DNA of 16,014 nt. It comes from Thermococci archaeon. Its GTDB lineage: Archaea > Hadarchaeota > B88-G9. The position numbers were made by a program, and so were the translations under genes. Shown one piece after another: positions 1,313-13,804 of this stretch. The notes below the pieces were generated by a model, which was not told the origin of the DNA, made no database searches, and worked only from the letters and a program-made list of their open reading frames with translations. Every line of letters begins with the position of its first letter. Position 1 is the first letter of the stretch. The DNA lies in the NCBI GenBank assembly GCA_003660555.1, contig QMUK01000021.1, positions 1 through 16,014 on the forward strand, read 5' to 3'.

Positions 1313-1320
1313 TTAATAAA
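1313..1320 (-). promoter_or_regulatory. Candidate TATA box for the secreted-protein gene
   Basis: On the minus strand TTTATTAA overlaps the stop codon of the thymidylate kinase gene. It lies about 48 bases before the proposed TTG start at 1265, so a transcript starting about 26 bases downstream would have a leader of roughly 20 bases containing GAGGTGA. This rests on sequence likeness only. Confidence 0.3.
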
Positions 1321-1927
1321 CTTTGGATATCACAGGTGAGACTGCCCTCATGACCTTTTCGGAAGTTTCCTCTAAGTCCATCCCTGTTTCTATTATCTCT
1401 ATGTTCCAAAAGTGTTTCCTAGATAGATCCCTTGATATCTGTCTATATTTCTCTATGACCATCTCCTGGAACTCCTCCGATTCGAACTTGCTTTTTCTTT
1501 TCTTTTTTCTTATTCGATCAATTATCGTCTCTTTATCGGATAACAAGACTATAGTTAGATCTGGTACTCCTGAGTACTTGTTTATTTCCTCTATCCACTC
1601 AATGTCCACCCCAGAGATGCTCTGATATACCAGAGAGGACAGGAGATACCTAACGCTTATGACGACTTTTCCTTCGTTGAGAGACGGTAATATTACTCTT
1701 CTGTAATGTTCGAGTCTATCTGCCGCGAAAAGTAGAGCTTCAGTCTCTGGGTAAAAACCCTTTCCATGTATCTCTTTTCTAAGAAAGATTCCTATTTTGT
1801 CGTCACTTGGTTCTTTCGTTAATATGCAAGGAACTCCAGCATCTCTAAGCTTGTCCCTAAGAAGTCTTCCTTGGGTGCTCTTTCCTACTCTATCTGGCCC
1901 CTCTATGGATATGAACACTCCCTTCAT
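1313..1927 (-). CDS. tmk: Thymidylate kinase (dTMP kinase) family protein
   Basis: This 204-residue protein has the layout of thymidylate kinase, which phosphorylates dTMP to dTDP with ATP. Visible motifs are a P-loop (GPDRVGKST, residues 10-18), the 'TKEPSDDKIG' region (37-46) matching the family TREPG motif, 'LFAADRLEH' (66-74), and 'RYLLSSLVYQ' (93-102) matching DRYxxSSxAYQ. A basic lid-like stretch RIRKKKRKSKFESEEF lies in the C-terminal third. Odd point: the usual Asp of the DRY motif is Val92 here (SVRY). Start: ATG at 1927 with GGAGG eight bases upstream. That Shine-Dalgarno lies inside a possible small ORF ending at 1924. The general family is clear. Strict dTMP specificity is less certain because of the altered motif; another nucleoside monophosphate kinase of the same family is possible. 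Confidence 0.85.
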   Translation of the reverse strand: MKGVFISIEGPDRVGKSTQGRLLRDKLRDAGVPCILTKEPSDDKIGIFLRKEIHGKGFYPETEALLFAADRLEHYRRVILPSLNEGKVVISVRYLLSSLVYQSISGVDIEWIEEINKYSGVPDLTIVLLSDKETIIDRIRKKKRKSKFESEEFQEMVIEKYRQISRDLSRKHFWNIEIIETGMDLEETSEKVMRAVSPVISKVY

Positions 1928-2028
1928 TTGAAATGCCTCCGAAGGACTTCAAGACATCTCTCTGCTACACCTATTAATTTTACACTGCCAGTAAATCTCG
2001 GACGATCTTTTCTCTTTAACAGTTTCAT
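1924..2028 (-). CDS. Possible 34-residue basic protein, overlapping start of tmk
   Basis: Reading minus from ATG at 2028 gives a 34-residue ORF beginning MKLLKRKDRPRFTG and ending CLEVLRRHFK. Its TGA stop overlaps the thymidylate kinase ATG (ATGA), the usual arrangement of translationally coupled genes. AAGGAA lies just before the ATG as a weak ribosome binding site, and an in-frame TAA lies eight codons upstream, so it cannot be extended. I do not recognise a family. It is basic and has no membrane segment. It could be a real small protein, chance, or the C-terminal piece of the decayed gene suspected just upstream at 2093-2305. Confidence 0.3.
   Translation of the reverse strand: MKLLKRKDRPRFTGSVKLIGVAERCLEVLRRHFK
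1973..1982 (-). promoter_or_regulatory. Candidate TATA box for thymidylate kinase
   Basis: The minus strand reads TAAAATTAAT about 48 bases before the tmk ATG. A transcript starting about 26 bases further on would have a leader of roughly 22 bases containing GGAGG. If the 34-residue ORF at 1924-2028 is real, this box would be inside it, so the two readings compete. Confidence 0.25.
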
Positions 2029-2092
2029 CGTGTTCCTTCCCGTTTCGCCTTAAACGAGCCCTCCCACTTCAATGAATGACTTCCCTTTTTTA

Positions 2093-2305
2093 CTATTGTC
2101 CTGTTTTTAGAAAATAACGCGGACTACTACTATCTCCTTGAATCCCAAATGTTAGATAATCGACCTTCGAGGAACTGCGTGTTTCGGCTAAATATTGGTG
2201 ACTATCTCCTATATCCAATACTTCTCCGCCCAATTTTTCCTTTTCGAAACACTACTAAGTTTCTCCATCGAATTGGAGTTGCTTTTCTTGAATTTCCAAT
2301 ACGTG
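2093..2305 (-). pseudogene. Possible remnant of a class I methyltransferase-like gene
   Basis: No intact gene fits the gap 1928-2319. One minus-strand frame reads as protein over about 70 codons. It begins VLEIQEKQLQFDGET, is broken by two consecutive TAG codons (2251-2256), continues CFEKEKLGGEVLDIGDSHQY, then LAETRSSSKVDYLTFGIQ and GDSSSPRYFLKTGQ, and stops at 2093. 'GGEVLDIGD' resembles motif I of Rossmann-fold SAM-dependent methyltransferases, although GDSH stands where GxGxG is usual. The codons are purine-rich like the neighbouring minus-strand genes. No full-length frame follows. My reading is a decayed, internally deleted gene, with the region to 1924 perhaps holding its C-terminus. 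This is inference from a short stretch; a chance open frame is the alternative. Confidence 0.3.
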
Positions 2306-2319
2306 GGAAAGAAAAGAAG
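2305..2319 (-). terminator. Candidate pyrimidine-rich terminator after the M50 gene
   Basis: Directly after the TAG stop at 2320-2322 the minus strand reads CTTCTTTTCTTTCCC. Archaeal RNA polymerase commonly terminates at U-rich tracts without a required hairpin, and this is the natural end of the seven-gene run that starts at 8430. The tract is interrupted by C residues, so its strength is uncertain. Confidence 0.35.
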
Positions 2320-3465
2320 CTAATCGATCTCCACCACTCTCACTGGATTTGGTGTGAAACTCAATATAACCAAAGCAGAATACAAAAATAACATGAGATA
2401 CTCCCTCAATCCTAGAGATAACTTCTCATTTAATGTGTTTTGTTCCGTTCCTCCTAGGAAAATCAGGAGCAATCCCCATATGGCCCATCCGGTCCATACC
2501 CTTATTCCGAGTAAATTCGCTAGGGGTGCTAAGATCAAAATCATGGGCAAATAATTAGAAAGTGCGATGTGAACTTTCTTTCCAGCTAAGCCTCTCACAA
2601 TGTGTCCTCCGTCGAGTTGAGCAGATGGAATTAAGTTCAAGAAGGTTATGAATATCCCGGCCCACGCTGCAAAGGCAATTGGGTGTAATAACACCTCTTC
2701 CAACCCCATGGCTCTCTTGACTATAATCATTATGAGGGGTTCTCCGAGTACGAGATAAGTCCCCTCGAGACTTTTCGGCTCGCTAGATAAACTAAGGCCG
2801 AGTACTAATAGAATTACTGAGAGGAGAAATCCAGAAAGAGGTCCACTTAATCCTATTTCTGCCAAAGCTCTCCTATGTGGTATAGCTCCTTTCACTTTTA
2901 TCAGTGCTCCGAGAGTGCCCAAGGGGAAAAAGGGCATTGGTATGAAATACGGAAGAGAACAAGAGACTAAGTTTTTGTTCGATGCAAACCTATGAGATAG
3001 TTCATGAATCGATATTATCCCAAATATAGATGCAGAAAATGATATTGCCTCATATACATTCTTGGAAAATTGATACCCTGCAAAAGTAGTCGATGCAATG
3101 GTCAATAGAGCCAGTAGGAGGAAGAGTAATTTGTTGTCTCTCTTGTAAAGAGGAGATGGAACTAACATGACTTCTCCTTTCCTAACGGAAACATATATTC
3201 CGTATTTCCTGAACTTTCTGTATATCCTGTCATATTCACTGAGATTCGGCTCCTTCTCTATGGGTATTACCAGTATTCCCTCTTTAGAGACATAGTACTC
3301 ATCAAATTCAGAGAGAATTAGGCTCATGTATGGATTCCAATCCCAAGGGCCTTCTCCTCTCGAGACTGAAAATTTATCTCCATCACAAGTCACGCACTTC
3401 CAATCTGGAACTCCTGTACCAATTCTGAATTCTTCTCTCCCACAGTTGATGCATTTAACCAACAA
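2320..3465 (-). CDS. Site-2-type M50 intramembrane metalloprotease with N-terminal zinc ribbon
   Basis: This 381-residue membrane protein carries both M50 signatures. HELSH at residues 154-158 gives the two zinc-binding His and catalytic Glu, and LDGG at 284-287, within 'LIPSAQLDGGHIV', gives the third ligand Asp285. Hydrophobic helices are visible near 113-130, 140-153, 208-226, 265-280, 305-320, 326-338 and 355-371. The N-terminus has two CxxC pairs (C5/C8 and C24/C27), a rubredoxin-like zinc ribbon, before an aqueous domain of about 80 residues. M50 proteases cut membrane-spanning substrates, often in signalling; the substrate here is unknown. It is the last gene of the run and overlaps the AcnX small-subunit stop by 11 bases. 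The start is TTG at 3465 or 3462, and neither has an ideally spaced Shine-Dalgarno. Confidence 0.85.
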   Translation of the reverse strand: MLVKCINCGREEFRIGTGVPDWKCVTCDGDKFSVSRGEGPWDWNPYMSLILSEFDEYYVSKEGILVIPIEKEPNLSEYDRIYRKFRKYGIYVSVRKGEVMLVPSPLYKRDNKLLFLLLALLTIASTTFAGYQFSKNVYEAISFSASIFGIISIHELSHRFASNKNLVSCSLPYFIPMPFFPLGTLGALIKVKGAIPHRRALAEIGLSGPLSGFLLSVILLVLGLSLSSEPKSLEGTYLVLGEPLIMIIVKRAMGLEEVLLHPIAFAAWAGIFITFLNLIPSAQLDGGHIVRGLAGKKVHIALSNYLPMILILAPLANLLGIRVWTGWAIWGLLLIFLGGTEQNTLNEKLSLGLREYLMLFLYSALVILSFTPNPVRVVEID

Positions 3466-3841
3466 TTTCTATCCATTCCTCCTGTATGATAACTTCTCTG
3501 GCTTTTTTTAGTTTCTCTATGTCTTTAAACTCTAGGAGGGGTATTTTCGCCATTACCGCTCCAATAGCAATAACGGGATTGGTCTTAGAACAGATCATCG
3601 CTAGAGGAGAATTGCCATGAACTTTCAGCCCGTATATGGTATAGGACCCAACTGTAGAGCCTTTCGCGGAAGGGAAGACCAATATCTTTCCTCTTAAGCT
3701 CTTTCCTTCTAATTCGTGTCCACTCTCGGTTATTTTCCCCGTCTCTGGATCTACTCCTCCCAAGAAAGTTATCGGCTCCTCAGTGTAGAGAACTTCTCCT
3801 CTAACTTTTCCTGGGAATATCGGCTTAGCCTTGAATCTCAT
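3455..3841 (-). CDS. Phosphomevalonate dehydratase small subunit (AcnX swivel domain, DUF126)
   Basis: This 128-residue protein matches the DUF126/AcnX small subunit, the swivelling domain related to the C-terminus of aconitase. The segment 'AKGSTVGSYTIYGL' (residues 59-72) carries the conserved small/Ser-rich active-site loop, and the N-terminal 'PGKVRGEVLYTEEPITFLGGVDPETG' is typical. With the large subunit it forms the enzyme that dehydrates (R)-mevalonate 5-phosphate to trans-anhydromevalonate 5-phosphate in the archaeal modified mevalonate pathway. It overlaps the large-subunit gene by 17 bases, and its ATG at 3841 follows GGGAGG with six-base spacing, which fits coupled translation in a 1:1 complex. 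AcnX proteins in bacteria act on cis-3-hydroxyproline. The archaeal context and the UbiD neighbour favour the mevalonate role. Confidence 0.9.
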   Translation of the reverse strand: MRFKAKPIFPGKVRGEVLYTEEPITFLGGVDPETGKITESGHELEGKSLRGKILVFPSAKGSTVGSYTIYGLKVHGNSPLAMICSKTNPVIAIGAVMAKIPLLEFKDIEKLKKAREVIIQEEWIEIVG

Positions 3842-4961
3842 TTAGAGCCTCCCTTTTTCTGATTAGACTTACCCTAATCCCAGATAAATTCCTCATATAG
3901 AAGGCTGCCTTGACACTCGGTGTTAGCACCTCCTCTATTCCCATCTCTCTCAGAGGAGAGACCACCATGCACGTGTCTCCGTATATCTTGAAGTTCTCAC
4001 TCTCTTTCACCAAAGAAGCCACACATCTAGAGGCGTATGCTAAGACTTTTCCCCTAAACCTTTTCGCCTCCTCAGCTTCTCTTAAAGTCATGTGTGGACA
4101 CCCTACAACCAATGGGCCATTCTCTGACTCGGAGAATTCCTCAAATACTTGGTTTATTTCCTCTTCTCCTATTTCAATTTTCTCAGTTGGGTTCATTTCC
4201 TTTCTCAGTGCTTCTGGTGTTTGACCCTTAACGTGGTATATGGATATCTCCGAAGAGGTAGCAATGCCAGCACCCAATTGTTTGTGTTCTTCAAGGGTCA
4301 TCCTCCTTCTATTGCCTAGGTCTATTAGGGGTATCTCGTCCTTCAATAGCTTCCCCAATGAGTATCCGAGAGCTCCGAACTCGGCTTCGTCATTTAAATC
4401 AGTCTTCACTTTGACTAGAACTTGAGGCTCCCTTTCCTCTTCAATGATAAGTCCGTACTCTGGAGTCTTCCCTATTATCGCAGACGCCAATGCACTAGGT
4501 CCGCCTTCTCTATTCGTTCTGGCTCCTAAAACTGAATTGGCGAATACAACAGCAGAAGACTCTGCCCATGAGATTACCTCTCCGAAGGAAGGAGTATTTC
4601 CCACTAGATATGGGGTACAAGTACAACTAGGCAGGATTCCCATTCCCTTATATATCTCGAGGATCTCCTCTTGTTCTTTGACGAAATCTTTAGGAAATTC
4701 CTCCTTTCTTTTTAGGTCTACCCCGCAAGGATTTAAAGTAGTTAAAACAGATACCTTAGCATTCCTTATTCTCCTGAGAAATTTCAATCCGTATTTACCT
4801 ATAGTCTTTGGAGACACTCCAGAAACCTGAGAACTACTTATTTTCACCAGTCTCTCTGCCCCAAAGACTTCTCCCAATGCGACTATCGTCTCCATAGCCC
4901 ATTTCCTCTCCTCTCCCTCTTCTCCAGATAATATTCTCTCTTCCTCCTTCGTCAGATACAA
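3825..4961 (-). CDS. Phosphomevalonate dehydratase large subunit (AcnX, DUF521)
   Basis: About 378 residues of the AcnX large-subunit type, a two-gene aconitase relative holding an Fe-S cluster. Family landmarks include the N-terminal 'YLTKEEERILSGEEGE', 'TTLNPCGVDL', 'PSCTCTPYLVGNTPSFGEV', 'FANSVLGARTNREGGPSAL', 'VVGCPHMTLREAEEAKR' and 'YASRCVASL'. The Cys residues in these blocks are the expected cluster ligand region. The enzyme removes water from mevalonate 5-phosphate. I place the start at TTG 4961, because family members begin M-YLT and GGGGGTGA lies eight to nine bases upstream. A GTG at 4973 is in frame but overlaps that Shine-Dalgarno. The gene follows the UbiD-like gene with an eight-base gap. 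AcnX relatives acting on hydroxyproline are the alternative, which the neighbours make less likely. Confidence 0.9.
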   Translation of the reverse strand: MYLTKEEERILSGEEGEERKWAMETIVALGEVFGAERLVKISSSQVSGVSPKTIGKYGLKFLRRIRNAKVSVLTTLNPCGVDLKRKEEFPKDFVKEQEEILEIYKGMGILPSCTCTPYLVGNTPSFGEVISWAESSAVVFANSVLGARTNREGGPSALASAIIGKTPEYGLIIEEEREPQVLVKVKTDLNDEAEFGALGYSLGKLLKDEIPLIDLGNRRRMTLEEHKQLGAGIATSSEISIYHVKGQTPEALRKEMNPTEKIEIGEEEINQVFEEFSESENGPLVVGCPHMTLREAEEAKRFRGKVLAYASRCVASLVKESENFKIYGDTCMVVSPLREMGIEEVLTPSVKAAFYMRNLSGIRVSLIRKREALNEIQG

Positions 4962-4969
4962 ATCTCTTC

Positions 4970-6283
4970 TCACCCCCGATTATTTCTGAGAAATTCAATG
5001 ACTCTTTCGAGAGGAACTGGATTCTTTCCTTCCTCTACCTCTAGTCCTCTCTTCGTAGTTGCGTCTAGACCGACCTTAGTGGTAACGGACTCCTTGGAAG
5101 AGGGGTCTAAGCTGGATCCCCTAGCTCCTTCTATTATGACTAGGTCCCTGTCAGCTTGGAACTTCAGAGCTATTTCCCTTTCGACTCTCTCTAAGTCGTA
5201 TGGATCCACCTCGTAGTCTACTACCACCACGTGTTTCAAGCTTGGATGCGCCGAGAAAGCCGCTATTATGGCGTTCTTCGCATCTCCTTCTGAGGCTTTT
5301 TCTATAGAGATCACTGCGTGTAGCCAAGAACATCCTCCAGGGGTTAAATGGATCCCTCTAACTCTCTTCACTACCCTTTTAACTTCTCTTAGAATGAGGG
5401 GTTCTCTCGGGAGGGCCATTAACGTCTTGTGTTCTATACCCCCAGGGATTATCCCATGGTATATTGGGTCATCCCTAGCTAAAACTCTCTCTACCTTGAT
5501 TACTGGTTCCTCCCTGGCCGAATCATAAGTGCCAGTTATGTCAACGAACGGTCCCTCCTTTACTCTTTCTCTAGGGAGTATCTCTCCTTCTATCACTATT
5601 TCCGAGTTTCTAGGTGCAAGAGAATTTACTCCATCGCATTCCACCATTTCTAGAGTACCTTTCATCAAAGAAGAGGCTACTTCCATCTCATCCATGTCTC
5701 TGGGGAGGTTCATGGCAGATGCTAACTGTACCTCCAAATCCGGTGCAATGGATATTGCTACCTCTAGCCCTTCACCCATCTCCTCTGCTCTCGAGTAGTA
5801 ACTATAAAGGTCCCTTGGAACAAGTCTTATGGCTAATCTCTCATCGTTCAGGACGAGGAGCCTGTGGAAAGAAGCATTTAAGACCCCTGTATCTGGATCT
5901 CTGGCGAAAACTATGCTAGAAGTAATGTATTTTCCTGCATCCATCGAATAATGCTTTAGAATAGGAATATCAGATAAAGAGAGTTCCTTCTCTTTAAACG
6001 GTGCTTCCTTAACAACTCTGTATTTCTCTGGGTTCTCTATTGCTTGAAGTAACTTCCAGGGGAGCTCATTTAGATTTGACCCAATGAATTCGACTACGTT
6101 TTCCCTAGTTACGAGGTTACAGATCACAGAGGCTGAGCTACCAGTCACGTTCTCGAAGAGTATAGGAGACTTCTCGTAGAGGGCTACTGCCGCTATTTCG
6201 TACTCGGGTGATATCTCCTTATTTACTTTTACTAGTGATCCTATTTCCTCCAGATGGGATATCATATCCCTAATACTCGTCAT
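4970..6283 (-). CDS. UbiD-family decarboxylase, probable trans-anhydromevalonate 5-phosphate decarboxylase
   Basis: A UbiD-family protein of 437 residues from ATG 6283; the family uses prenylated FMN and a divalent metal. Recognisable blocks are 'VNASFHRLLVLNDERLAIRL'-like (here NASFHRLLVLNDERLAIRLV), 'SIAPDLEVQLASAMNLPRD', 'SEIVIEGEILPRER', 'EGPFVDITGTYD' and the C-terminal 'LGLDAT'-like segment VGLDATTKRG. The Arg and Glu residues in the central blocks are where the family's catalytic R-E-E set lies. Placement between UbiX and both AcnX subunits points to anhydromevalonate phosphate decarboxylase, which makes isopentenyl phosphate. I chose ATG 6283 over the upstream ATG 6298 because GAGGTG lies five bases before it. 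It overlaps the UbiX stop by 14 bases. A different UbiD substrate cannot be excluded from sequence alone. Confidence 0.9.
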   Translation of the reverse strand: MTSIRDMISHLEEIGSLVKVNKEISPEYEIAAVALYEKSPILFENVTGSSASVICNLVTRENVVEFIGSNLNELPWKLLQAIENPEKYRVVKEAPFKEKELSLSDIPILKHYSMDAGKYITSSIVFARDPDTGVLNASFHRLLVLNDERLAIRLVPRDLYSYYSRAEEMGEGLEVAISIAPDLEVQLASAMNLPRDMDEMEVASSLMKGTLEMVECDGVNSLAPRNSEIVIEGEILPRERVKEGPFVDITGTYDSAREEPVIKVERVLARDDPIYHGIIPGGIEHKTLMALPREPLILREVKRVVKRVRGIHLTPGGCSWLHAVISIEKASEGDAKNAIIAAFSAHPSLKHVVVVDYEVDPYDLERVEREIALKFQADRDLVIIEGARGSSLDPSSKESVTTKVGLDATTKRGLEVEEGKNPVPLERVIEFLRNNRG

Positions 6284-6842
6284 ATCTCCACCTCTCATAC
6301 AGTTCGTGCTCTAAGTTGAGGAGCTCCAATATCTTTCCAACTACGAAGTTCACCAAGTCTTCCACTTCCCTAGGTCTGTGATAAAAGCCTGGAGAAGCTG
6401 GCATAATTATAGCTCCAGCTCTAGATGCCCTAAGCATGTTTTCTATTTCTATTTCTCCTATGGGTGTTTCTCTTATTACTAATACCAGTTTCCTCTTGGT
6501 CCTAAGGGAATTCACCGCTATTCTATCTAACAAGTCGTTTGCATAGCCCATAGAGATGGAGGAAAGCCTCTTGAGGCTGCAAGGGACTATGATAACTCCT
6601 GATAAAGGGAATCCACTGCTAGCTAATGGAGAGTCCAATTCGCCAGAATCGAAATGCCTAAATCCTAACTTATTACTCAAGGAGTCTATGGTAACTCCAG
6701 TCTCGATTTCGAATATCTTCCTTCCCATTTCAGTCGAAACCACTGAGAACCTCAATTTTCTACTGGCTAACTCCTCCAACAGCCTCTTAGCATATGGAGC
6801 ACCACTAGCCCCAGTTATTCCTATGACTAGCAACTCAACCAC
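6270..6842 (-). CDS. ubiX: UbiX flavin prenyltransferase
   Basis: This 190-residue protein makes prenylated FMN from FMN and dimethylallyl (pyro)phosphate, the cofactor of UbiD enzymes. The N-terminal 'VIGITGASGAPYAKRLLEEL' is the flavoprotein Rossmann signature of UbiX. 'IIVPCSLKRLSSISMGYANDLLDRIA' and 'LVLVIRETPIGEIEIENMLRASRAGAIIMPASPGFYHRP' match the FMN/phosphate-binding and C-terminal active-site segments; these are pointers to the region rather than complete motifs. It sits directly before the UbiD-like gene, with overlapping ends. Start: GTG at 6842, overlapping the HD gene stop. A TTG at 6833 has the better-placed GGGTGG and would remove only three residues. The pathway's own isoprenoid product feeds this enzyme, so the operon supplies both decarboxylase and cofactor. 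Confidence 0.92.
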   Translation of the reverse strand: MVELLVIGITGASGAPYAKRLLEELASRKLRFSVVSTEMGRKIFEIETGVTIDSLSNKLGFRHFDSGELDSPLASSGFPLSGVIIVPCSLKRLSSISMGYANDLLDRIAVNSLRTKRKLVLVIRETPIGEIEIENMLRASRAGAIIMPASPGFYHRPREVEDLVNFVVGKILELLNLEHELYERWRYDEY

Positions 6843-8016
6843 CCAATATCGATCTGAGCTTCCTCAGCACAGTTTCCTCGGAGAGATTCCTCCTTATCTC
6901 CTTTGGAACGTAAATCCCAAATCTCCAGTAGTCCCAAGATGCCCAAGACAAGACCTTCGCTAAAAAGGATACCTCTTCCAGTGCTTTCATTTCCCCTCTG
7001 TACTTGACTAAAACCTCCACTTCCTCGAAGGATGGACTTGGGAAAACGTCTATCAATAAGTCCCCGTTTCTTAAGTTGAACTCAGATGCTAGCTCATTCT
7101 CTATCTCCACTATTTTTTTAATCCCGTTTGATCTGAGATTGGTTAATAACTCAAAGAAATCGTCATCCATGTCCATCCTCGAAAGGTATACTACCCTTTT
7201 GTACAAATTCCTCTCGTCTATCATTCTCATTATCTTTGAAGGAATTCCCTCCTGTCTCCTAAGAAAGGAAATCAAATCGAAGTCATCCATCTTAGACAAT
7301 TCCTCTATCGAGAGTGTTCTATCTAGGAAACAGGATAGAACTGCTCTGGTGAGCATTGCATCTGCTATCCTAGATACGTGGTGCAAGTAAACTGTCGGAT
7401 ACATGGCAAATCTAGCAAACAATAAGGTCTCAGCTGCTTTTATTCCTTTCTCAGACAAGACTACCTTTCCGTTAGATATTTCAAAACTCTGTATTAGTCT
7501 CTCCAAGTCTATCACACCATAGGCCACTCCAGTGTAATGGGAGTCCCTAACTAGATAATCGGCTCTGTCTACATCTAATGGACTTGATATTATCTTTCCT
7601 AGTTCTCCCTCTCCCCTCACGATGGATATTACTTCCCTATTGGAGAAATTCCCGAGATCCATCTCCTTTATTATTTTCTCAGACAGGGAAGTGTGAGTAA
7701 CTCCGTAATAATCTCTAACAAGGTCCTCTAGTGCGTGGGAGAGAGGCATGTGCCCTATGTCGTGTAATAGTCCCGATATTCTCAGGAGCTTTTTCTCATC
7801 CTCTCCTAAGCCCAGAGACTCTGAAACTCTTCCTGCTAGATGCATCACTCCTAGGGAGTGTTCGAACCTAGTATGATTTGCTCCTGGATAAACCAGATAT
7901 GCCATTCCAAGCTGTCTTATCCTCCTGAGTCTCTGCACTTCTATTGAATCTATTATTCCAATTTCCTCCTCGGATATCTCTATGTTGCCGTGTATGGCAT
8001 CTCTTATCACTTTCAA
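6835..8016 (-). CDS. HD-domain phosphohydrolase (COG1078, SAMHD1/dGTPase-like)
   Basis: A 393-residue HD-superfamily protein. The metal-binding set is visible: H53 in 'TRFEHSLGVMHLA', H85-D86 in 'LLHDIGHMPLSHALE', and D150 in 'SPLDVDRADYLVRDS'. The opening 'KVIRDAIHGNIEI' and 'QRLRRIRQLG' are typical of the COG1078 branch related to dNTP triphosphohydrolases, so hydrolysis of a nucleotide is likely, but substrate cannot be read from sequence. Start: TTG at 8016, with GGGGAGTGA about nine bases upstream; GTG at 8010 is an in-frame alternative. It lies six bases after the YjbQ stop and overlaps the UbiX start, so it is part of the isoprenoid-linked run. No functional link to that pathway is known to me. 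The C-terminal ~150 residues show no further motif. Confidence 0.88.
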   Translation of the reverse strand: MKVIRDAIHGNIEISEEEIGIIDSIEVQRLRRIRQLGMAYLVYPGANHTRFEHSLGVMHLAGRVSESLGLGEDEKKLLRISGLLHDIGHMPLSHALEDLVRDYYGVTHTSLSEKIIKEMDLGNFSNREVISIVRGEGELGKIISSPLDVDRADYLVRDSHYTGVAYGVIDLERLIQSFEISNGKVVLSEKGIKAAETLLFARFAMYPTVYLHHVSRIADAMLTRAVLSCFLDRTLSIEELSKMDDFDLISFLRRQEGIPSKIMRMIDERNLYKRVVYLSRMDMDDDFFELLTNLRSNGIKKIVEIENELASEFNLRNGDLLIDVFPSPSFEEVEVLVKYRGEMKALEEVSFLAKVLSWASWDYWRFGIYVPKEIRRNLSEETVLRKLRSILGG

Positions 8017-8022
8017 TGTCTC

Positions 8023-8430
8023 TCACTCCCCAATCACTTGTACGTATAGTTCTCTCCTCCTAGGCCCATCGAATTCAATCATGAGTATCCTTTGCCAGGT
8101 CCCCAATTGAAGAGAGCCCCCTGATACAGGGAGAACTAGGCTTGGAAGGATCAAAATAGATCTAAGATGAGACGTTGCATTCCTGTCTACTTCATCGTGC
8201 TTGTATTTATTTTCCTTAACTAGAGTGGAGAAAGTCTTTAATATGTCATCCATTAATCCTCTTTCTGCTTCATTGATGCAAAGAGCTGCTGTTGTGTGTT
8301 TCAAAAAAACTATTGCAACTCCTTCCTTCACGCCACTCTTATTTATGGCCTTCTCCACCAAGTTGGTTACGTCTAGCACCTCCTCCTTGCTGGAGGTGTC
8401 CACTCTTTCCACTCGGACGTAACTCTTCAA
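8023..8430 (-). CDS. YjbQ family protein (UPF0047)
   Basis: This 135-residue protein matches YjbQ/UPF0047, a widespread beta-barrel family that forms trimers. Conserved positions are all present: 'KHTTAALCINE' (44-54), H78, N84 and H88 in 'RNATSHLR', 'LQLGTWQRI' (107-115) and 'FDGPRRRELYVQ' (120-131). Some members have weak thiamin phosphate synthase activity in vitro, but the cellular role is unresolved. It is the first gene of the minus-strand run to 2320. The start is probably TTG at 8430. There is no convincing Shine-Dalgarno before it, while a TATA-like box lies about 36 bases upstream, so a short leader or leaderless message is possible. A GTG five codons further in is the alternative start. 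Confidence 0.9.
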   Translation of the reverse strand: MKSYVRVERVDTSSKEEVLDVTNLVEKAINKSGVKEGVAIVFLKHTTAALCINEAERGLMDDILKTFSTLVKENKYKHDEVDRNATSHLRSILILPSLVLPVSGGSLQLGTWQRILMIEFDGPRRRELYVQVIGE

Positions 8431-8452: not shown

Positions 8453-8740
8453 TTGAGAATAGTTATAAAGGTGAAGGAAATAAGGGGTAAATGTCCCGTC
8501 TATTCTGTAGGAGACAAAATAGTCCTAGATGGGCCGAGAATAGTAAAGGAGGAAAGTTCAGAGATTTGCGTCCACGCACTAGTGCCAATATTACACTTCT
8601 ACTTGGCGTTAAGAGAAGGAGTGTCTCCAGAGAAAATCGGAATAGGAAGAGGAAATAAGGCTTACATCTCTTGCCCAGATCCTGGAAAATACACTGGCGG
8701 AGGAAATGTCATTTTCGAATTGGAAGGGGAAGAACTATAA
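8453..8740 (+). CDS. TIGR04076 family protein, function unknown
   Basis: A 95-residue protein beginning MRIVIKVKEIRGKCPVYSVG, the usual opening of TIGR04076 proteins, with a second conserved Cys/His stretch 'ICVHALVPILHFYLALREGV' and a late 'YISCPDPGKYTGGGNVIFEL'. The three Cys and two His could bind metal, but no function is established. The start is TTG at 8453, backed by a textbook GGAGGTGATCC immediately upstream and by the family's expected length. It is alone on the plus strand, divergent from YjbQ and convergent with the DUF429 gene, whose last 32 bases it overlaps. No plus-strand TATA box is obvious upstream. Confidence 0.88.
   Translation: MRIVIKVKEIRGKCPVYSVGDKIVLDGPRIVKEESSEICVHALVPILHFYLALREGVSPEKIGIGRGNKAYISCPDPGKYTGGGNVIFELEGEEL
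8463..8470 (-). promoter_or_regulatory. Candidate TATA box for the YjbQ-to-M50 operon
   Basis: The minus strand reads CTTTATAA, centred about 36 bases before the YjbQ TTG start, which predicts a transcript start near 8440 and a leader of about ten bases. It lies inside the start of the divergent TIGR04076 gene. This rests on the motif and spacing only. Confidence 0.35.
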
Positions 8741-9284
8741 GGCCCTCATCTTCCCTGCCCAATGTCTCGAACTCTCCGAGGAAATACATGAAAGCAGTGA
8801 TTGCTGAGTAAACAGCGTCTTCCTCGTCTCTACTCAAATCCTTTTTCTGTATTCTCAGGTTTATTTTAGGGAGCAATTCCCAGAGTGGTCCGAGTATTTT
8901 CCTGCTAGTTCCAGGATGAACTTCTATTACCTCAATTCCCCGCTTCTCTAAGTTTTTCTTGAGTGAAATTCCTCTCTCTGTCAAATTCCTCATCCACTTG
9001 AATGTGACTGGAAACACTCTGTAACCTCTAGAGATCATTTCTCTCTCTATCCACCTCATTCCCCCTATTCTCTCACAATTACACTCCTTTCTCAAACAGC
9101 ATCTACCTAGAGGTAAAGAAAGGGGGGCATCTATTGCCACTACTCTCGGAGACACTTCCATCAATAGATCGACTATTTCCTCGTTGGAGAAAGCTTCTTT
9201 GACGAATACTTCTCCTTCGTCTAGCCAGGCAATCCCTGATGGCCTACTTTCCTTTGCTGAAAGATCCACTCCTGCTAATCTCAT
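8709..9284 (-). CDS. DUF429 family protein (predicted RNase H-fold nuclease)
   Basis: This 191-residue protein has the DUF429/COG2410 pattern: 'LAGVDLSAKESRPSGIAW' at the start (Asp7), 'RVVAIDAPLSLPLG' (the second acidic strand) and 'VFPVTFKWMRNLTERGISL', ending with an acidic 'SRDEEDAVYSAITAF'. These acidic positions suit an RNase H-like nuclease fold, but no substrate is known. An unusual 'CCLRKECNCERIGG' cluster with four Cys sits near residues 63-76 and may bind metal. The start is ATG at 9284, with GAGGAG about ten bases upstream, inside the previous gene (41-base overlap). It ends the POR-led run and overlaps the convergent TIGR04076 gene by 32 bases. Confidence 0.82.
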   Translation of the reverse strand: MRLAGVDLSAKESRPSGIAWLDEGEVFVKEAFSNEEIVDLLMEVSPRVVAIDAPLSLPLGRCCLRKECNCERIGGMRWIEREMISRGYRVFPVTFKWMRNLTERGISLKKNLEKRGIEVIEVHPGTSRKILGPLWELLPKINLRIQKKDLSRDEEDAVYSAITAFMYFLGEFETLGREDEGLIVLPLPIRK

Positions 9285-9795
9285 TGGAGTACAGCTCCTC
9301 CAATGGGACCTCTATCCTAGGCCTATTGGGTATGACGTGCCTAGTAGTCTTGGGCGGATATTTCTCCCCACTGAGCCCTATTTTTATTACGTCTTCCTTG
9401 CTAACACTTTTGAAAATAACTGCAGCTTGGAACTTCCCTTTCTCTACTAGTTCTATGGCCTCCTCAACGGATCGGACATATTCTACTTCCAGTTCGTTCC
9501 ATTTCCTTATTATGTCCTCCAGACCTTTTATTTCTCCTTTAACCACCGGATACCATCTCTCCACCCTTATGCTTGGATCGGAGTAATTCACCAAGAGTAC
9601 TGGAATTAGCCTGCATCCCAATTTCCTGAGAGCTTCGACTCTGTGATGCCCATCTAATACTACTAGGGTTTCCTTATCAACTATTACTGGCTCTTTAATC
9701 ACCCCGTCTCTTTTTATCTCGTCTATGAGGGAGTTCAGCTTCTCGGGGATTACTTCTTCGTGACTCTTGAGCTTCTCTATTTCTAATAGCTTCAT
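9244..9795 (-). CDS. serK: SerK-type free serine kinase (ParB/sulfiredoxin-fold)
   Basis: About 183 residues with a ParB-like fold. Landmarks are 'KLKSHEEVIPEKL' (8-20), 'LVVLDGHHRVEALRKLG' (44-60) and 'YPPKTTRHVIPNRP' (146-159). This set, especially DGHHR with the distal PPKTTRHV, is that of the archaeal free serine kinase SerK described in Thermococcus (ADP-dependent) and in Sulfolobales (ATP-dependent), rather than chromosome-partitioning ParB. It would make O-phosphoserine from serine, a cysteine precursor; which phosphate donor it uses is not evident. I chose ATG 9795, where the conserved part begins. TTG 9813, overlapping the POR beta stop with GGAGG ten bases upstream, would add six residues. 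It sits between POR beta and DUF429. A nuclease or regulator of the ParB superfamily is the alternative. Confidence 0.75.
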   Translation of the reverse strand: MKLLEIEKLKSHEEVIPEKLNSLIDEIKRDGVIKEPVIVDKETLVVLDGHHRVEALRKLGCRLIPVLLVNYSDPSIRVERWYPVVKGEIKGLEDIIRKWNELEVEYVRSVEEAIELVEKGKFQAAVIFKSVSKEDVIKIGLSGEKYPPKTTRHVIPNRPRIEVPLEELYSNEISRSGSFSKGK

Positions 9796-9809
9796 CTCCC
9801 CCTCGGATG

Positions 9810-10712
9810 TCAATCCGACTTATCCTCCATTTTCTCTATCCTCTCCCAAGTCTCATCGACCATCTTCTGTATTTTCTCTATCTCTTCCTTCGTTAGATGC
9901 CTAAATCTTCCCTGTAGCCTCAAATATTCCTCTACAGGTTTTCTCTCCTTTGGTTTATACGTTATTCTGAACTTCCCGTTCTCGAACTCGTATAAAATCC
10001 ACATTCCGGTTTCTACTGCTAGATTAGCAATCTCCACTGTTTTACTAGCATCGTATCTCCATCCAGGCTGACATGGAGAATGAATATGTAGATATCTGAA
10101 TCCTTTTATTTTTTTAGCCTTCTCTACTTTTCTTATTAGGTCCATTGGCTTAGCTATGCTCATTGTGGCCACATAAGGAACATTATGAGCCATCATTATC
10201 ATGGGTACGTCCTTTTTAGGCCTGTCCTCTCCAACTTTCCATTCCTTTCCGGGAGGTGATGTAGTAGTCCAAGCCCCATATGGAGTTGCTCCAGATCTCT
10301 GTATTCCTGTATTCATGTAAGCCTCGTTGTCGTAACAAATGTATATTACGTCATCGTTTCTCTCTGCAGCTCCAGAAAGAGCCTGAAGTCCTATGTCTGC
10401 CGTACCACCATCTCCTGCTATTCCAACTACGTTTACGTCCTCTACACCCTTTATCTCTAGTGCCGCTCTTATTCCGGAAATGACTGCCCCAGTGTTCTCG
10501 AAGGCGGTGTGTATGAATGGGACTTTCCAAGAAGTATAGGGATGAGTAGAGCCGAATACTAGGAGACAGCACGCCGGTGTGTGGACTATAGTCTTCTTAC
10601 CTAAGACCTTCATTATCATCCTTATTGCAATGGGTGCCCCACATCCTGGACAGGCAGTATGGCCTGAAACGAAAAGCTCCTCTTGTGGTAGATCCCTAAG
10701 GCTCTTTATCAA
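9810..10712 (-). CDS. porB: Pyruvate:ferredoxin oxidoreductase beta subunit (TPP-binding)
   Basis: This 300-residue subunit binds thiamine pyrophosphate and an Fe-S cluster. It shows 'GHTACPGCGAP' near the start with CxxC, 'VGIAGDGGTADIG' (TPP/Mg binding, GDGG) and 'YICYDNEAYMNTGIQRSGATP', the standard TPP motif of pyruvate oxidoreductases. The reaction converts pyruvate, CoA and oxidised ferredoxin to acetyl-CoA, CO2 and reduced ferredoxin. The frame is open upstream to a TTG-like codon at 10793, but that would overlap the alpha gene by 76 bases. The start is better placed at TTG 10712, five bases after the alpha stop, with GGAGGTGA overlapping that stop. Pyruvate is preferred over other 2-oxoacids because of the four-gene gamma-delta-alpha-beta layout; another 2-oxoacid is not excluded. 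Confidence 0.93.
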   Translation of the reverse strand: MIKSLRDLPQEELFVSGHTACPGCGAPIAIRMIMKVLGKKTIVHTPACCLLVFGSTHPYTSWKVPFIHTAFENTGAVISGIRAALEIKGVEDVNVVGIAGDGGTADIGLQALSGAAERNDDVIYICYDNEAYMNTGIQRSGATPYGAWTTTSPPGKEWKVGEDRPKKDVPMIMMAHNVPYVATMSIAKPMDLIRKVEKAKKIKGFRYLHIHSPCQPGWRYDASKTVEIANLAVETGMWILYEFENGKFRITYKPKERKPVEEYLRLQGRFRHLTKEEIEKIQKMVDETWERIEKMEDKSD

Positions 10713-10717
10713 ATAAA

Positions 10718-10725
10718 TCACCTCC
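10718..10725 (-). promoter_or_regulatory. Shine-Dalgarno deciding the POR beta start
   Basis: Minus-strand GGAGGTGA covers the TGA stop of the alpha gene and lies five bases before the TTG at 10712. This strong site fixes the beta start and implies coupling to the end of alpha translation. The same pattern precedes the alpha (11884-11893) and delta (12168-12174) genes. Confidence 0.7.
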
Positions 10726-11881
10726 TCAAACCAATCCAATGCATCCTCTCTTCTTTTTTCTTTGAGGAGTCCTCCATGTCCTTGAAAATCCACTTTATTT
10801 CATCAGTTCTGATGTCCCTGCCACCTATTCCAGATACGTAGCTGTTCACAAGTGTTTCCTCACCGTAAAGAGAGTCTCTAACCTCCAAGTAGACTGGAGG
10901 CCTAGATCCATAGGAATGAGCTCTGTCTATCACCCCAATGGCCTCTCTTTCCCTGAGCAACTCTCTTATCTCCTCTCTCGGGAAGGGCCTGAAGACCCTT
11001 ATCCTGAGTATCCCCACTTTCTTCCCCTCCTTCCTTAGTTCGTCCACTGTCTCCTTGGCAGTTCCGCTTAGAGCTCCCATTGTAACTAGAACGTACTCCG
11101 CGTCCTCTAGCATGTATCCATCTAGTACATCGTATTTCCTCCCGAACAGTTTGTGAAATTCTTCTTGGGCCTTTGGTATTTCTTTCCTAGCAGCCTCCAT
11201 ACCTTCTTCCATTCTATACTTGAATTCCATGGTGTAATCTGGAGTGACCAAGGGACCTAGAGTCATTGGATTATCAACGTCTAGTTTATACTCTGGCTCA
11301 TATGGGGGGAGGAAGTCTCTCACTTCATCTTCATCTGGTATTTCAACTGGTTCGTACGTATGGGAAAGAGTGAACCCATCCAGATTGACCATGGTGGGCA
11401 GCATTACTTCTTTGCTCTCGGATATCCTGTAGGCTTGAACTATGGTGTCTAGGACCTCTTGGTTGTTTTCACAGAATATTTGTATCCATCCAGAGTCTCT
11501 CTCGAACATGACGTCTGAGTAATCGCACCATATGTTTATCGGAGCTGCTAGCGTCCTATTGACTACAGCCATCACTATGGGTAGTCTCATGGAAGCAGCT
11601 ACTACCACCATCTCGTGCATTAAGGCCAATCCCTGAGAGGAAGTAGCGGTGAAAGTTCTAGCTCCGGTTGCAGATGCTCCTATGCAAGCACTCATTGCGG
11701 AATGTTCTGATTCTACTTTTATGTATTTGGCTTTTAATTCCCCATTGGATACGAACTGAGAGAGATATTCCACTATAGTGGTCTGTGGGGTTATAGGATA
11801 AGCTGCTATTACCTCGACTCCAGAGATTTTGGCCCCATAGGCAGCTGACATGTTCCCACTCATGACTCTCACTTCAGGCAA
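10718..11881 (-). CDS. porA: Pyruvate:ferredoxin oxidoreductase alpha subunit
   Basis: A 387-residue alpha subunit carrying the pyrimidine-binding N-terminal domain and the transketolase C-terminal-like domain. Diagnostic pieces are 'GVEVIAAYPITPQTTIVEYL' (21-40), 'VESEHSAMSACIGASATGAR', 'TATSSQGLALMHE', 'RDSGWIQIFCENNQEV' and, in the C-terminal domain, 'EYVLVTMGALSGTAKE' and 'IGVIDRAHSYGS'. It pairs with beta to form the catalytic core; gamma and delta complete the heterotetramer. The start is TTG at 11881 with GGAGGTGATC two bases upstream of the final TC spacer, one of the strongest ribosome binding sites in the window. It lies four bases after the delta stop. Nothing in the sequence suggests truncation. 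Confidence 0.95.
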   Translation of the reverse strand: MPEVRVMSGNMSAAYGAKISGVEVIAAYPITPQTTIVEYLSQFVSNGELKAKYIKVESEHSAMSACIGASATGARTFTATSSQGLALMHEMVVVAASMRLPIVMAVVNRTLAAPINIWCDYSDVMFERDSGWIQIFCENNQEVLDTIVQAYRISESKEVMLPTMVNLDGFTLSHTYEPVEIPDEDEVRDFLPPYEPEYKLDVDNPMTLGPLVTPDYTMEFKYRMEEGMEAARKEIPKAQEEFHKLFGRKYDVLDGYMLEDAEYVLVTMGALSGTAKETVDELRKEGKKVGILRIRVFRPFPREEIRELLREREAIGVIDRAHSYGSRPPVYLEVRDSLYGEETLVNSYVSGIGGRDIRTDEIKWIFKDMEDSSKKKEERMHWIGLRR

Positions 11882-11885
11882 GAGA

Positions 11886-12161
11886 TCACCTCCTCACCAT
11901 CTCTATCGCTTTGACGGGACAAACTTGGGAGCATATTCCACAACCCTTGCAGTACTCGTAATTTACTTCCACTTTGTTCTCCTCTTCTAGCCTGCTTATT
12001 GCTGCGTCTGGACAATATATCCAGCACAGAAGGCAATACACACACTTATTCTTGTCTATGTTTGGTTTGAATGCTCCCCATCCACCAGTCTTATTTCTTG
12101 TGGAATTTCCTGGATCCAATATTGCCGGGAGTGGGGGTAACTCTCTGAGACCTTCCTTCAA
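11886..12161 (-). CDS. porD: Pyruvate:ferredoxin oxidoreductase delta subunit (2x[4Fe-4S] ferredoxin)
   Basis: A 91-residue ferredoxin-like subunit with two complete CxxCxxCxxxCP motifs: 'CVYCLLCWIYCPDAAI' (40-55) and 'CKGCGICSQVCPVKAI' (71-86). It carries electrons from the alpha/beta active site to free ferredoxin. The N-terminus is 39 residues of basic/proline-containing sequence with 'GGWGAFKP', typical of PorD. It begins at TTG 12161 with GGAGGTG six bases upstream, and lies between gamma and alpha, with gaps of three to four bases. The first motif is rich in aromatic and hydrophobic residues between the Cys, but the Cys are intact. Confidence 0.95.
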   Translation of the reverse strand: MKEGLRELPPLPAILDPGNSTRNKTGGWGAFKPNIDKNKCVYCLLCWIYCPDAAISRLEEENKVEVNYEYCKGCGICSQVCPVKAIEMVRR

Positions 12162-12164
12162 GCT

Positions 12165-12710
12165 CTACACCTCCAATACCTTAGTCTCGGAATATGCTCT
12201 CTCAGCAGCCCTAGCGTTCTCCTCTGGCTTTGCGGGAGACATTCTCCTTATGGAGTCCAAAACTGTCTCTATTTTTACTTCTCCAGTAGCTTTGGCGAAT
12301 GCTCCCAATATAGCTGTGTTAGTTATGGGCACTCCCAATATGTCCAAGGCTATGGTGGTGGCGTCAACAGTTGCTACCTTTGAGCAAGTTTCACATGCTA
12401 TGTCCTCTGGGTTCCTCTCGGTATTGACTATGAGGATTCCACCCTCTCTCATACCTTCAGTTACTTTGACTACCTCTAGCAAAGTTGGGTCTAGGACTAC
12501 AACGTAATCTGGTTCATAAACGTGGGACCTGACTCTTATCGGTCTGTCGTCTATTCTAGCGAATGCCATTACTGGCGCCCCTCTTCTCTCGGCCCCGAAG
12601 AAAGGAAACGCTTGGGAATATTTTCCCTCTCTGAATACAGCATCCGCAAGAATCTGTGCGGCAGTAACTGCTCCTTGACCTCCTCTTCCATGAAACCTTA
12701 TTTCCCTCAA
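12165..12710 (-). CDS. porG: Pyruvate:ferredoxin oxidoreductase gamma subunit
   Basis: About 181 residues of the POR/KOR gamma type. The N-terminus '[20 protein letters not shown]' is the family signature, followed by '[21 protein letters not shown]' and a mid-protein '[15 protein letters not shown]' block. It is the first gene of the operon, and a palindromic TATAA element lies upstream. Initiation can be at ATG 12716 or TTG 12710. GGGGG abuts the ATG with no spacing but is six bases from the TTG, so I favour TTG. The difference is two residues. The gamma subunit lacks a cofactor of its own in this split form and is thought to help bind CoA. Confidence 0.92.
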
Positions 12711-12744
12711 GAACATCCCCCGGGCCAGAGGATGGGGAGTTCTC

Positions 12745-12750
12745 TTATAA
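12745..12750. promoter_or_regulatory. Palindromic TTATAA element, possible shared TATA box for both POR and CobO operons
   Basis: TTATAA reads the same on both strands and lies between the divergent genes. It is about 35 bases from the POR gamma start on the minus side and about 36 from the CobO TTG on the plus side. Expected transcript starts, roughly 26 bases away, fall near 12721 and 12773, leaving short leaders that each hold a G-rich ribosome binding site (GGGGG; GGGGAG). One TBP site may thus serve both directions. Confidence 0.45.
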
Positions 12751-12765
12751 CCTTAACTGAGCTCA

Positions 12766-12782
12766 CTCTCCCTAGGGGAGAG
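12766..12782. promoter_or_regulatory. Palindrome over the predicted CobO transcript start (candidate operator)
   Basis: CTCTCCCTAGGGGAGAG is a near-perfect inverted repeat centred at about 12774, spanning the predicted plus-strand transcript start and including the GGGGAG ribosome binding site. Archaeal repressors often bind between TATA box and start, so an operator is plausible. If transcription started further upstream it could also form a hairpin masking the site. No regulator gene is seen nearby. Confidence 0.35.
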
Positions 12783-12785
12783 AAG

Positions 12786-13301
12786 TTGCTGGGATTAGTG
12801 CATGTGTATACTGGAAACGGAAAAGGAAAGACTACTTCAGCCCTTGGTCTGGCCTTAAGAGCATCTGGCCATGAGATGAGGACCCTTTTCGTTCAATTTC
12901 TCAAAGGAAGAGAGAGCGGTGAGGTAAAGGCTCTAAAAGGAAACAAATTCATAGACATAGAGACCTTCGGGACAGGGGAATTCTTCACTGAATCTAAGAG
13001 AGATTTGTTCCTAGAATATTGTAGGAAAGGGCTTGAGAGGGTAAGAAATGGAATGAGGAGTGGGAGGTATCACATAATAGTATTAGATGAGGTAAACGTG
13101 GCAATGCACCTAGGCCTAATCGAGGAGAAAGAGATACTCTCGTTGATGGAAACCTCTAGAGAACTCGGAGTTGAGCTGATTCTCACAGGTAGAAATGCTC
13201 CGAAGAGTGTAATAGAAAGAGCAGACCTAGTCACTGAGATGGTCGAAGTGAAGCATCCATACAACTCGGGAGTGAAAGCCAGGATGGGGATCGAATGGTA
13301 G
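12786..13301 (+). CDS. cobO: Cob(I)alamin adenosyltransferase, CobO/CobA type
   Basis: About 171 residues. The P-loop 'TGNGKGKTTSALGLALRA' comes at the start, as in all CobA/CobO/BtuR enzymes, followed by 'RTLFVQFLKG', the Walker B-like 'YHIIVLDEVNVAMHLGL' and 'LILTGRNAP'. It transfers the adenosyl group of ATP to cob(I)alamin or cobyrinic acid diamide, giving adenosylcobalamin. I place the start at TTG 12786, with GGGGAG five bases upstream and the P-loop about nine residues in, as expected. The frame stays open to 12522, but that extension crosses the promoter region and has no family match. Its stop overlaps the CYTH start by seven bases. No other cobalamin gene is visible, so the source of corrinoid (synthesis or salvage) is unknown. 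Confidence 0.9.
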   Translation: MLGLVHVYTGNGKGKTTSALGLALRASGHEMRTLFVQFLKGRESGEVKALKGNKFIDIETFGTGEFFTESKRDLFLEYCRKGLERVRNGMRSGRYHIIVLDEVNVAMHLGLIEEKEILSLMETSRELGVELILTGRNAPKSVIERADLVTEMVEVKHPYNSGVKARMGIEW

Positions 13302-13801
13302 AGATCGAGGCCAAGTTAAGAGGTCATCCCAATCTCAGAAGAGTCATTGAAAGGCTAGGAGGCAAGAGCTTAGGGGTAGTAGACCAGGAGGACATTTATC
13401 TATTTCATCCGAGGATAGAAATGAAAGATTGTGCCTTAAGAGTTCGAATAGAGTGTTCTAATAATTGCAAGAGTGTAAAACTCTGTTATAAGGGTCCAAG
13501 ACTAACTATAGGGATGGTAAAGCAAAGAGAAGAGATAGAAGTGCATGTCGATGACTTAGATAAGCTATTGAGCATATTCCGCAATCTAGGATTCGAAGTA
13601 GTGGCCACAGTAAAAAAGAAAAGAGAGATATTCTCCCTTGGCAGAGTAGAAATACATCTGGATGATGTGGAAGAGCTAGGAATGTTTCTGGAAATAGAGG
13701 GAAATTCCCGAAGCGAGATAGAGAAAGTAATATCTGAATTGGGTCTCAGCGAGAAGGAAGTAGAGAGAAGGACTTACCTAGAGATGCTCCTCGGGGGCTA
13801 A
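13295..13801 (+). CDS. CYTH domain protein (CyaB-like adenylyl cyclase or triphosphatase)
   Basis: A 168-residue CYTH tunnel-fold protein. The ExExK motif is at residues 3-7 (EIEAK), and charged residues lining the tunnel follow in 'CALRVRIEC', 'LCYKGPR', 'KQREEIEVHVDD', 'VKKKREIFSLGRVEIHLDDV' and 'GMFLEIEG'. This is the class IV adenylyl cyclase/CyaB branch, in which archaeal members may make cAMP or hydrolyse triphosphate-containing compounds; which applies cannot be read here. The ATG at 13295 overlaps the CobO stop, and its stop is three bases before the MutS-like start, so the three are co-transcribed. The link between them is not apparent. Confidence 0.88.
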   Translation: MVEIEAKLRGHPNLRRVIERLGGKSLGVVDQEDIYLFHPRIEMKDCALRVRIECSNNCKSVKLCYKGPRLTIGMVKQREEIEVHVDDLDKLLSIFRNLGFEVVATVKKKREIFSLGRVEIHLDDVEELGMFLEIEGNSRSEIEKVISELGLSEKEVERRTYLEMLLGG

Positions 13802-13804
13802 AGA

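Follow-up and report, generated by a model that had tools for sequence, protein, structure and literature searches.

We analysed a 16,014-nucleotide stretch of DNA (the window; bases 1-16,014 of contig 21) from a 1.30 Mb archaeal metagenome-assembled genome (MAG) in 150 contigs, 91% complete, which its relatives place in the phylum Hadarchaeota and which is the sole member of family f1 among the genomes compared. On its minus strand, head to tail from 6842 to 3455, lie genes for the flavin prenyltransferase UbiX, a UbiD-family decarboxylase and the large and small subunits of aconitase X (AcnX-L and AcnX-S). We are highly confident that this locus belongs to the known archaeal modified mevalonate pathway. 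The first-pass annotation of the sequence had made the same proposal, and it is supported by the pathway content of the genome, the active sites, the UbiD and AcnX trees, and the recurrence of the grouping. In the proposed route, AcnX is the predicted phosphomevalonate dehydratase, UbiX would prenylate flavin mononucleotide (FMN), and UbiD with matured prenyl-FMN would decarboxylate trans-anhydromevalonate 5-phosphate to isopentenyl phosphate; mevalonate 5-phosphate would thereby be converted to isopentenyl phosphate. Isopentenyl phosphate kinase (IPK) and type 2 isopentenyl diphosphate isomerase (IDI2), encoded beside mevalonate kinase (MVK) elsewhere in the genome, would complete isopentenyl diphosphate and dimethylallyl diphosphate.

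The remaining pathway genes are present in the assembly. Contig 7 carries the order enolase-rpsB-MEMO-MVK-IPK-IDI2, the first three having been named by eye from their translations. The mevalonate kinase matches TIGR00549 at 267 bits, IPK (C7:13929-14642) matches NF040647 at 175 bits against a cut-off of 120, and IDI2 scores 423 bits. HMG-CoA (3-hydroxy-3-methylglutaryl-CoA) reductase (382 bits) and an archaeal HMG-CoA synthase (574 bits) are encoded as well. The mevalonate kinase is the one PF00288 kinase found in the genome, and neither TIGR01240 nor PF22700 (MVD-like N-terminal domain) detected a diphosphomevalonate or phosphomevalonate decarboxylase in the 91% complete assembly. The classical mevalonate pathway was rejected on the lack of a decarboxylase match to these two models. 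The genome therefore has the content that the first-pass annotation had anticipated, with both kinases found and the classical decarboxylase not found. Given the full modified route, the window UbiD, the genome's single member of this family, is the sole candidate for the decarboxylation step.

This UbiD (4970-6283, minus strand) matches TIGR00148 at 382 bits (cut-off 245) and is a predicted trans-anhydromevalonate 5-phosphate decarboxylase. The catalytic Arg-Glu-Asp triad of the family is kept as R146, E248 and D253, numbered from ATG 6298. A tree of 71 rows, including HmfF, AnInD, E. coli UbiD and menaquinone-type UbiDs, placed the window protein within the archaeal UbiDs linked to AcnX (SH-aLRT, the Shimodaira-Hasegawa-like approximate likelihood ratio test, 96), with all four reference types outside that group. 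Its partner UbiX (6270-6842, minus strand; TIGR00421, 184.5 bits) is the only UbiX above the curated cut-off in the genome. Residues E49, R122, E140 and Y169 of PaUbiX are retained as E47, R107, E125 and Y154, and the equivalent of F181 is F166, which hints at dimethylallyl phosphate rather than the diphosphate as the prenyl donor, although other determinants contribute besides this position. UbiX enzymes make prenylated FMN from reduced FMN and dimethylallyl (pyro)phosphate. As these two proteins are the only such pair in the genome, the window UbiX presumably serves the window UbiD. Because of this known chemistry, UbiX would require dimethylallyl phosphate or diphosphate from the same pathway, and the cofactor supply would depend on a product that the pathway itself makes. 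This dependence is a consequence of known chemistry and not a new finding, and the feedback between product and cofactor suggested by the first-pass annotation is inferred from the UbiX chemistry. Elsewhere in Hadarchaeota, a second, VdcC-like UbiD was seen away from AcnX (L026 of G015, 1841-3205; TIGR00148 365 bits, VdcC 296 bits).

The two AcnX subunits are present as separate open reading frames (ORFs), which is the split, type IIb form. AcnX-L (3825-4961, minus strand; PF04412, 408 bits) has Thermococcus 7cnr as its top PDB match at 289 bits, compared with 145 bits for the hydroxyproline enzyme. The small, swivel subunit AcnX-S (3455-3841, minus strand; PF01989, 114 bits) is single-copy in the genome, conserves the KGSTVGSY motif and has TK1248 (7cnr_B) as its top PDB match. 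With AcnX-L numbered from GTG 4973, Cys119, Cys292, Cys335, Glu138, Lys355 and Tyr359 are conserved in 104-105 of 105 aligned rows, and the mevalonate 5-phosphate site residues Glu138, Ser139, Lys355, Tyr359 and Asn81 are retained. The three cysteines align with Cys122, Cys297 and Cys356 of the Aeropyrum phosphomevalonate dehydratase, which mutagenesis found to be required for the [4Fe-4S] cluster (PMC10040528), and with Cys110, Cys283 and Cys342 of Thermococcus AcnX (PMC8184944). In the AcnX-L tree the window sequence lies near Hydrothermarchaeota (SH-aLRT 83), distant from the hydroxyproline enzyme. An AcnX-L homologue in G030 (L035, 2874-4064) has GSPQ instead of GCPH in the second cluster-cysteine region and a branch of 3.26, and possibly has an altered function. 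A stop codon suspected within the AcnX-L of G001 proved to be located upstream of the true start.

The four genes adjoin closely. The first-pass annotation had given a 14-base overlap, an eight-base gap and a 17-base overlap, and these values are exact with homology-supported starts: UbiX and UbiD overlap by 14 nt when UbiD starts at ATG 6283, UbiD and AcnX-L are separated by 8 nt when AcnX-L starts at TTG 4961, and AcnX-L and AcnX-S overlap by 17 nt. The UbiD and AcnX-L starts are choices on which the stated overlaps depend; the longest ORFs begin at ATG 6298 and GTG 4973 and give overlaps of 29 and 4. Homologues of AcnX-L start at MYLTKEQE, consistent with TTG 4961, and Shine-Dalgarno-like (SD) motifs (GGTGG and GGTGAG) lie upstream of both chosen starts, the GGTGAG standing at suitable spacing before TTG 4961 and overlapping the UbiD stop. 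Strong profile matches uphold all four ORFs. The four-gene block is not self-contained. It lies inside a seven-gene same-strand run of YjbQ, an HD phosphohydrolase, UbiX, UbiD, AcnX-L, AcnX-S and an M50 peptidase, in which gaps or overlaps do not exceed 17 nt: YjbQ ends 6 nt before HD, HD and UbiX overlap by 8 nt, and AcnX-S and M50 by 11 nt. The genes of the block are presumably co-transcribed. A scan for sigma-70 promoters and terminators, with models ill-suited to archaea, returned counts equal to the shuffled expectation.

The grouping is ordinary and widely shared. Among 78 named AcnX-L loci, UbiD was found within 3.5 kb of AcnX-L in 47, AcnX-S in 50 and UbiX in 15. The chance of UbiX falling within about four genes of AcnX-L is approximately 0.6%, an estimate for a genome of about 1,400 genes, so its presence in 15 of 78 loci from many phyla exceeds chance. 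UbiX-UbiD-AcnX groupings occur in Hadarchaeota family f2, Hydrothermarchaeota, Methanocellales, Methanoperedens, Aenigmatarchaeota and Micrarchaeota, as well as in an Odinarchaeon, Candidatus Terraquivivens and one Chloroflexota MAG. A published survey found that mevalonate-pathway genes are mostly clustered and that the modified route is dominant in archaea (PMC11052028). The window is a further case of a known cluster and carries little surprise. Among the papers searched, we found none treating both Hadarchaeota and mevalonate. The locus extends gene-context support for the pathway to a divergent Hadarchaeota family while tying a specific UbiX to the UbiD of the mevalonate pathway. Four Chloroflexota-labelled contigs (L081, L122, L129 and L133) carry type II AcnX with an archaeal-type UbiD and cluster together in both trees, L122 having all four genes in the order UbiX-UbiD-AcnL-AcnS; either the archaeal route was transferred to Chloroflexota or these contigs were mis-binned. 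A Bacillota-labelled contig (L102) carries both AcnX subunits together with a distant UbiD, placed on long branches.

Several observations weigh against the assignment to the modified mevalonate pathway. The MAG is 91% complete, and gene absences from it are not proof. The UbiD tree contained no Aeropyrum or Methanosarcina UbiD. In UbiX, K129 of PaUbiX is replaced by R114 at a position that is mostly Lys, with Arg in 3 of 30 aligned rows. The window proteins sit on long branches (UbiX 1.8, UbiD 1.06, AcnX-L 1.51) and do not group with other Hadarchaeota, the window UbiD standing apart from them in the 71-row tree; context therefore says more about the identity of the substrate than close orthology does. 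With long branches for all three genes, single-gene trees do not separate fast evolution under vertical inheritance from gene transfer. Finally, the solved UbiD nearest in sequence is 6h6v (321 bits), the furan-dicarboxylate enzyme HmfF. This last match favours a different account, namely that UbiX and UbiD form an aromatic- or furan-acid decarboxylase system that adjoins AcnX by chance; 6h6v is likewise the top-scoring match of another, similar archaeal UbiD. HmfF, a furan-2,5-dicarboxylate decarboxylase, does share the UbiD fold and prenylated-FMN chemistry, but its triad ends in Glu and the window's in Asp, and neither HmfF nor AnInD belongs to the AcnX-linked archaeal group. Moreover, UbiD adjoins AcnX in the 47 loci counted above, and the window UbiD is the sole one in its genome, where mevalonate kinase and IPK are both encoded with no other known route to connect them. 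The UbiD did not cluster with aromatic-acid decarboxylases; on the tree, the single copy and the context, that function was rejected, and we regard a chance neighbour of this kind as very improbable.

Another explanation would make AcnX a cis-3-hydroxyproline dehydratase, the hydroxyproline-dehydratase model being the only NCBIfam match of AcnX-L. The two AcnX ORFs reach 208 and 79 bits against that model's cut-off of 700, however, and the type I enzyme is a single fused chain whereas the subunits are separate in the window. Thermococcus AcnX scores twice as high, and Cys292 corresponds to cysteine site 1 (Tk Cys283), a residue found in phosphomevalonate dehydratases and absent from hydroxyproline enzymes. 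Scores, split subunits, cysteine pattern and tree all place AcnX away from the hydroxyproline dehydratases, and we give this explanation next to no credence. The tight packing might instead reflect a compact genome only, with UbiX, HD and M50 as unrelated passengers. Small archaeal genomes commonly show overlaps of 4-17 nt, and most f3 Hadarchaeota have UbiD-AcnL-AcnS at one site and UbiX at another. Yet UbiX-UbiD-AcnX recurs across many phyla, AcnS-M50 is retained in 15 of 16 Hydrothermarchaeota loci, and a functional link of UbiX is expected because UbiD needs prenylated FMN. We judge the passenger explanation unlikely as a whole, while it stays open for HD, M50, YjbQ and dTMP kinase (TMK).

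These attached genes show conserved linkage of their own. The HD-domain phosphohydrolase (6835-8016, minus strand; PF01966 and PF19276) stands directly before UbiX in the window, G029, Methanonatronarchaeales and Methanocellales. The M50 (site-2-type) membrane metalloprotease (2320-3465, minus strand; PF02163, 60 bits), with an N-terminal zinc ribbon and an HELSH motif, directly follows AcnX-S in the window, in the Hydrothermarchaeota loci mentioned above, in G028 and in one Thermococcaceae contig, with TMK next in several; 14 loci from the phylum to which G029 belongs gave no such case. Over the loci L144-L159, L094 and L137-L142, the conserved partner of M50 is AcnX-S in Hydrothermarchaeota and Thermococcaceae, whereas other Hadarchaeota have UbiX and TMK beside it. 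The window TMK (1313-1927, minus strand; TIGR00041, 140 bits) begins 392 bp after the M50 gene and is a conserved neighbour, probably in a separate transcription unit. YjbQ (UPF0047; 8023-8430, minus strand; TIGR00149, 134 bits) is the first gene of the seven-gene run, and the examined loci yielded no further YjbQ next to these genes.

The window unites two conserved neighbourhoods, HD-UbiX and AcnS-M50-TMK, and their joining suggests an older, larger cluster kept nearly whole. Six f3 Hadarchaeota genomes and G012 have the order UbiX-M50-TMK, which in f3, with a convergent HD, is the window order minus UbiD-AcnL-AcnS. One could imagine an ancestral archaeal superoperon HD-UbiX-UbiD-AcnL-AcnS-M50, followed by TMK, in which M50 and HD helped control isoprenoid or membrane-lipid synthesis and of which the f3 order is a scar left by the departed UbiD-AcnL-AcnS; we put this forward as speculation and judge it unlikely. 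The joining of the two neighbourhoods is itself new but modest, and none of the papers searched was found to treat aconitase X together with neighbouring M50 and UbiX genes. As conserved neighbours, M50 and HD may offer a lead on the control of archaeal lipid synthesis.

Beyond the run, a small divergent ORF (8453-8740, plus strand) lies 23 bp away from where the seven-gene run starts. It has a good SD motif, GGAGGTGATC, and no Pfam match. The first ~100 residues of a 189-residue protein (9244-9813) resemble the ADP-dependent serine kinase SerK, scoring 118 bits where the cut-off is 380. The window also has a four-gene 2-oxoacid:ferredoxin oxidoreductase operon (9810-12716; thiamine pyrophosphate (TPP), POR_N, ferredoxin and gamma subunits), which is faced by a CobO-CYTH-MutS-like run (12522-15775).

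Among characterized systems, Thermococcus kodakarensis AcnX (7cnr/7cns; TK1248 small subunit) shares with the window the two-subunit type IIb form, the same cysteines and the same Glu, Lys and Tyr, although Tk Asn53 corresponds to Thr57, at a position where the family has Ser, Thr or Asn. In a Thermococcaceae contig (L094) M50 also directly follows the small subunit, but no UbiD or UbiX was seen beside AcnX. The modified mevalonate pathway of Aeropyrum pernix, attributed to Hayakawa et al. 2018 in the two papers that cite it (PMC9128505 and PMC8184944), likewise has a split AcnX phosphomevalonate dehydratase, a UbiD-type decarboxylase and a UbiX partner. Its decarboxylase APE_RS06980 and UbiX APE_RS05555 have distant locus tags and seemingly lie apart, whereas the four genes of the window are contiguous and overlapping. 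Within Hadarchaeota, the f2 group (G001, G003 and G004) has a contiguous UbiX-UbiD-AcnL-AcnS, but HD and M50 are unattached, and its versions of UbiD and UbiX diverge from the window's. Hydrothermarchaeum profundi (L055/L156) has the same order of HD, UbiX-UbiD-AcnL and AcnS-M50 as the window, though extra genes separate HD from UbiX and AcnL from AcnS.

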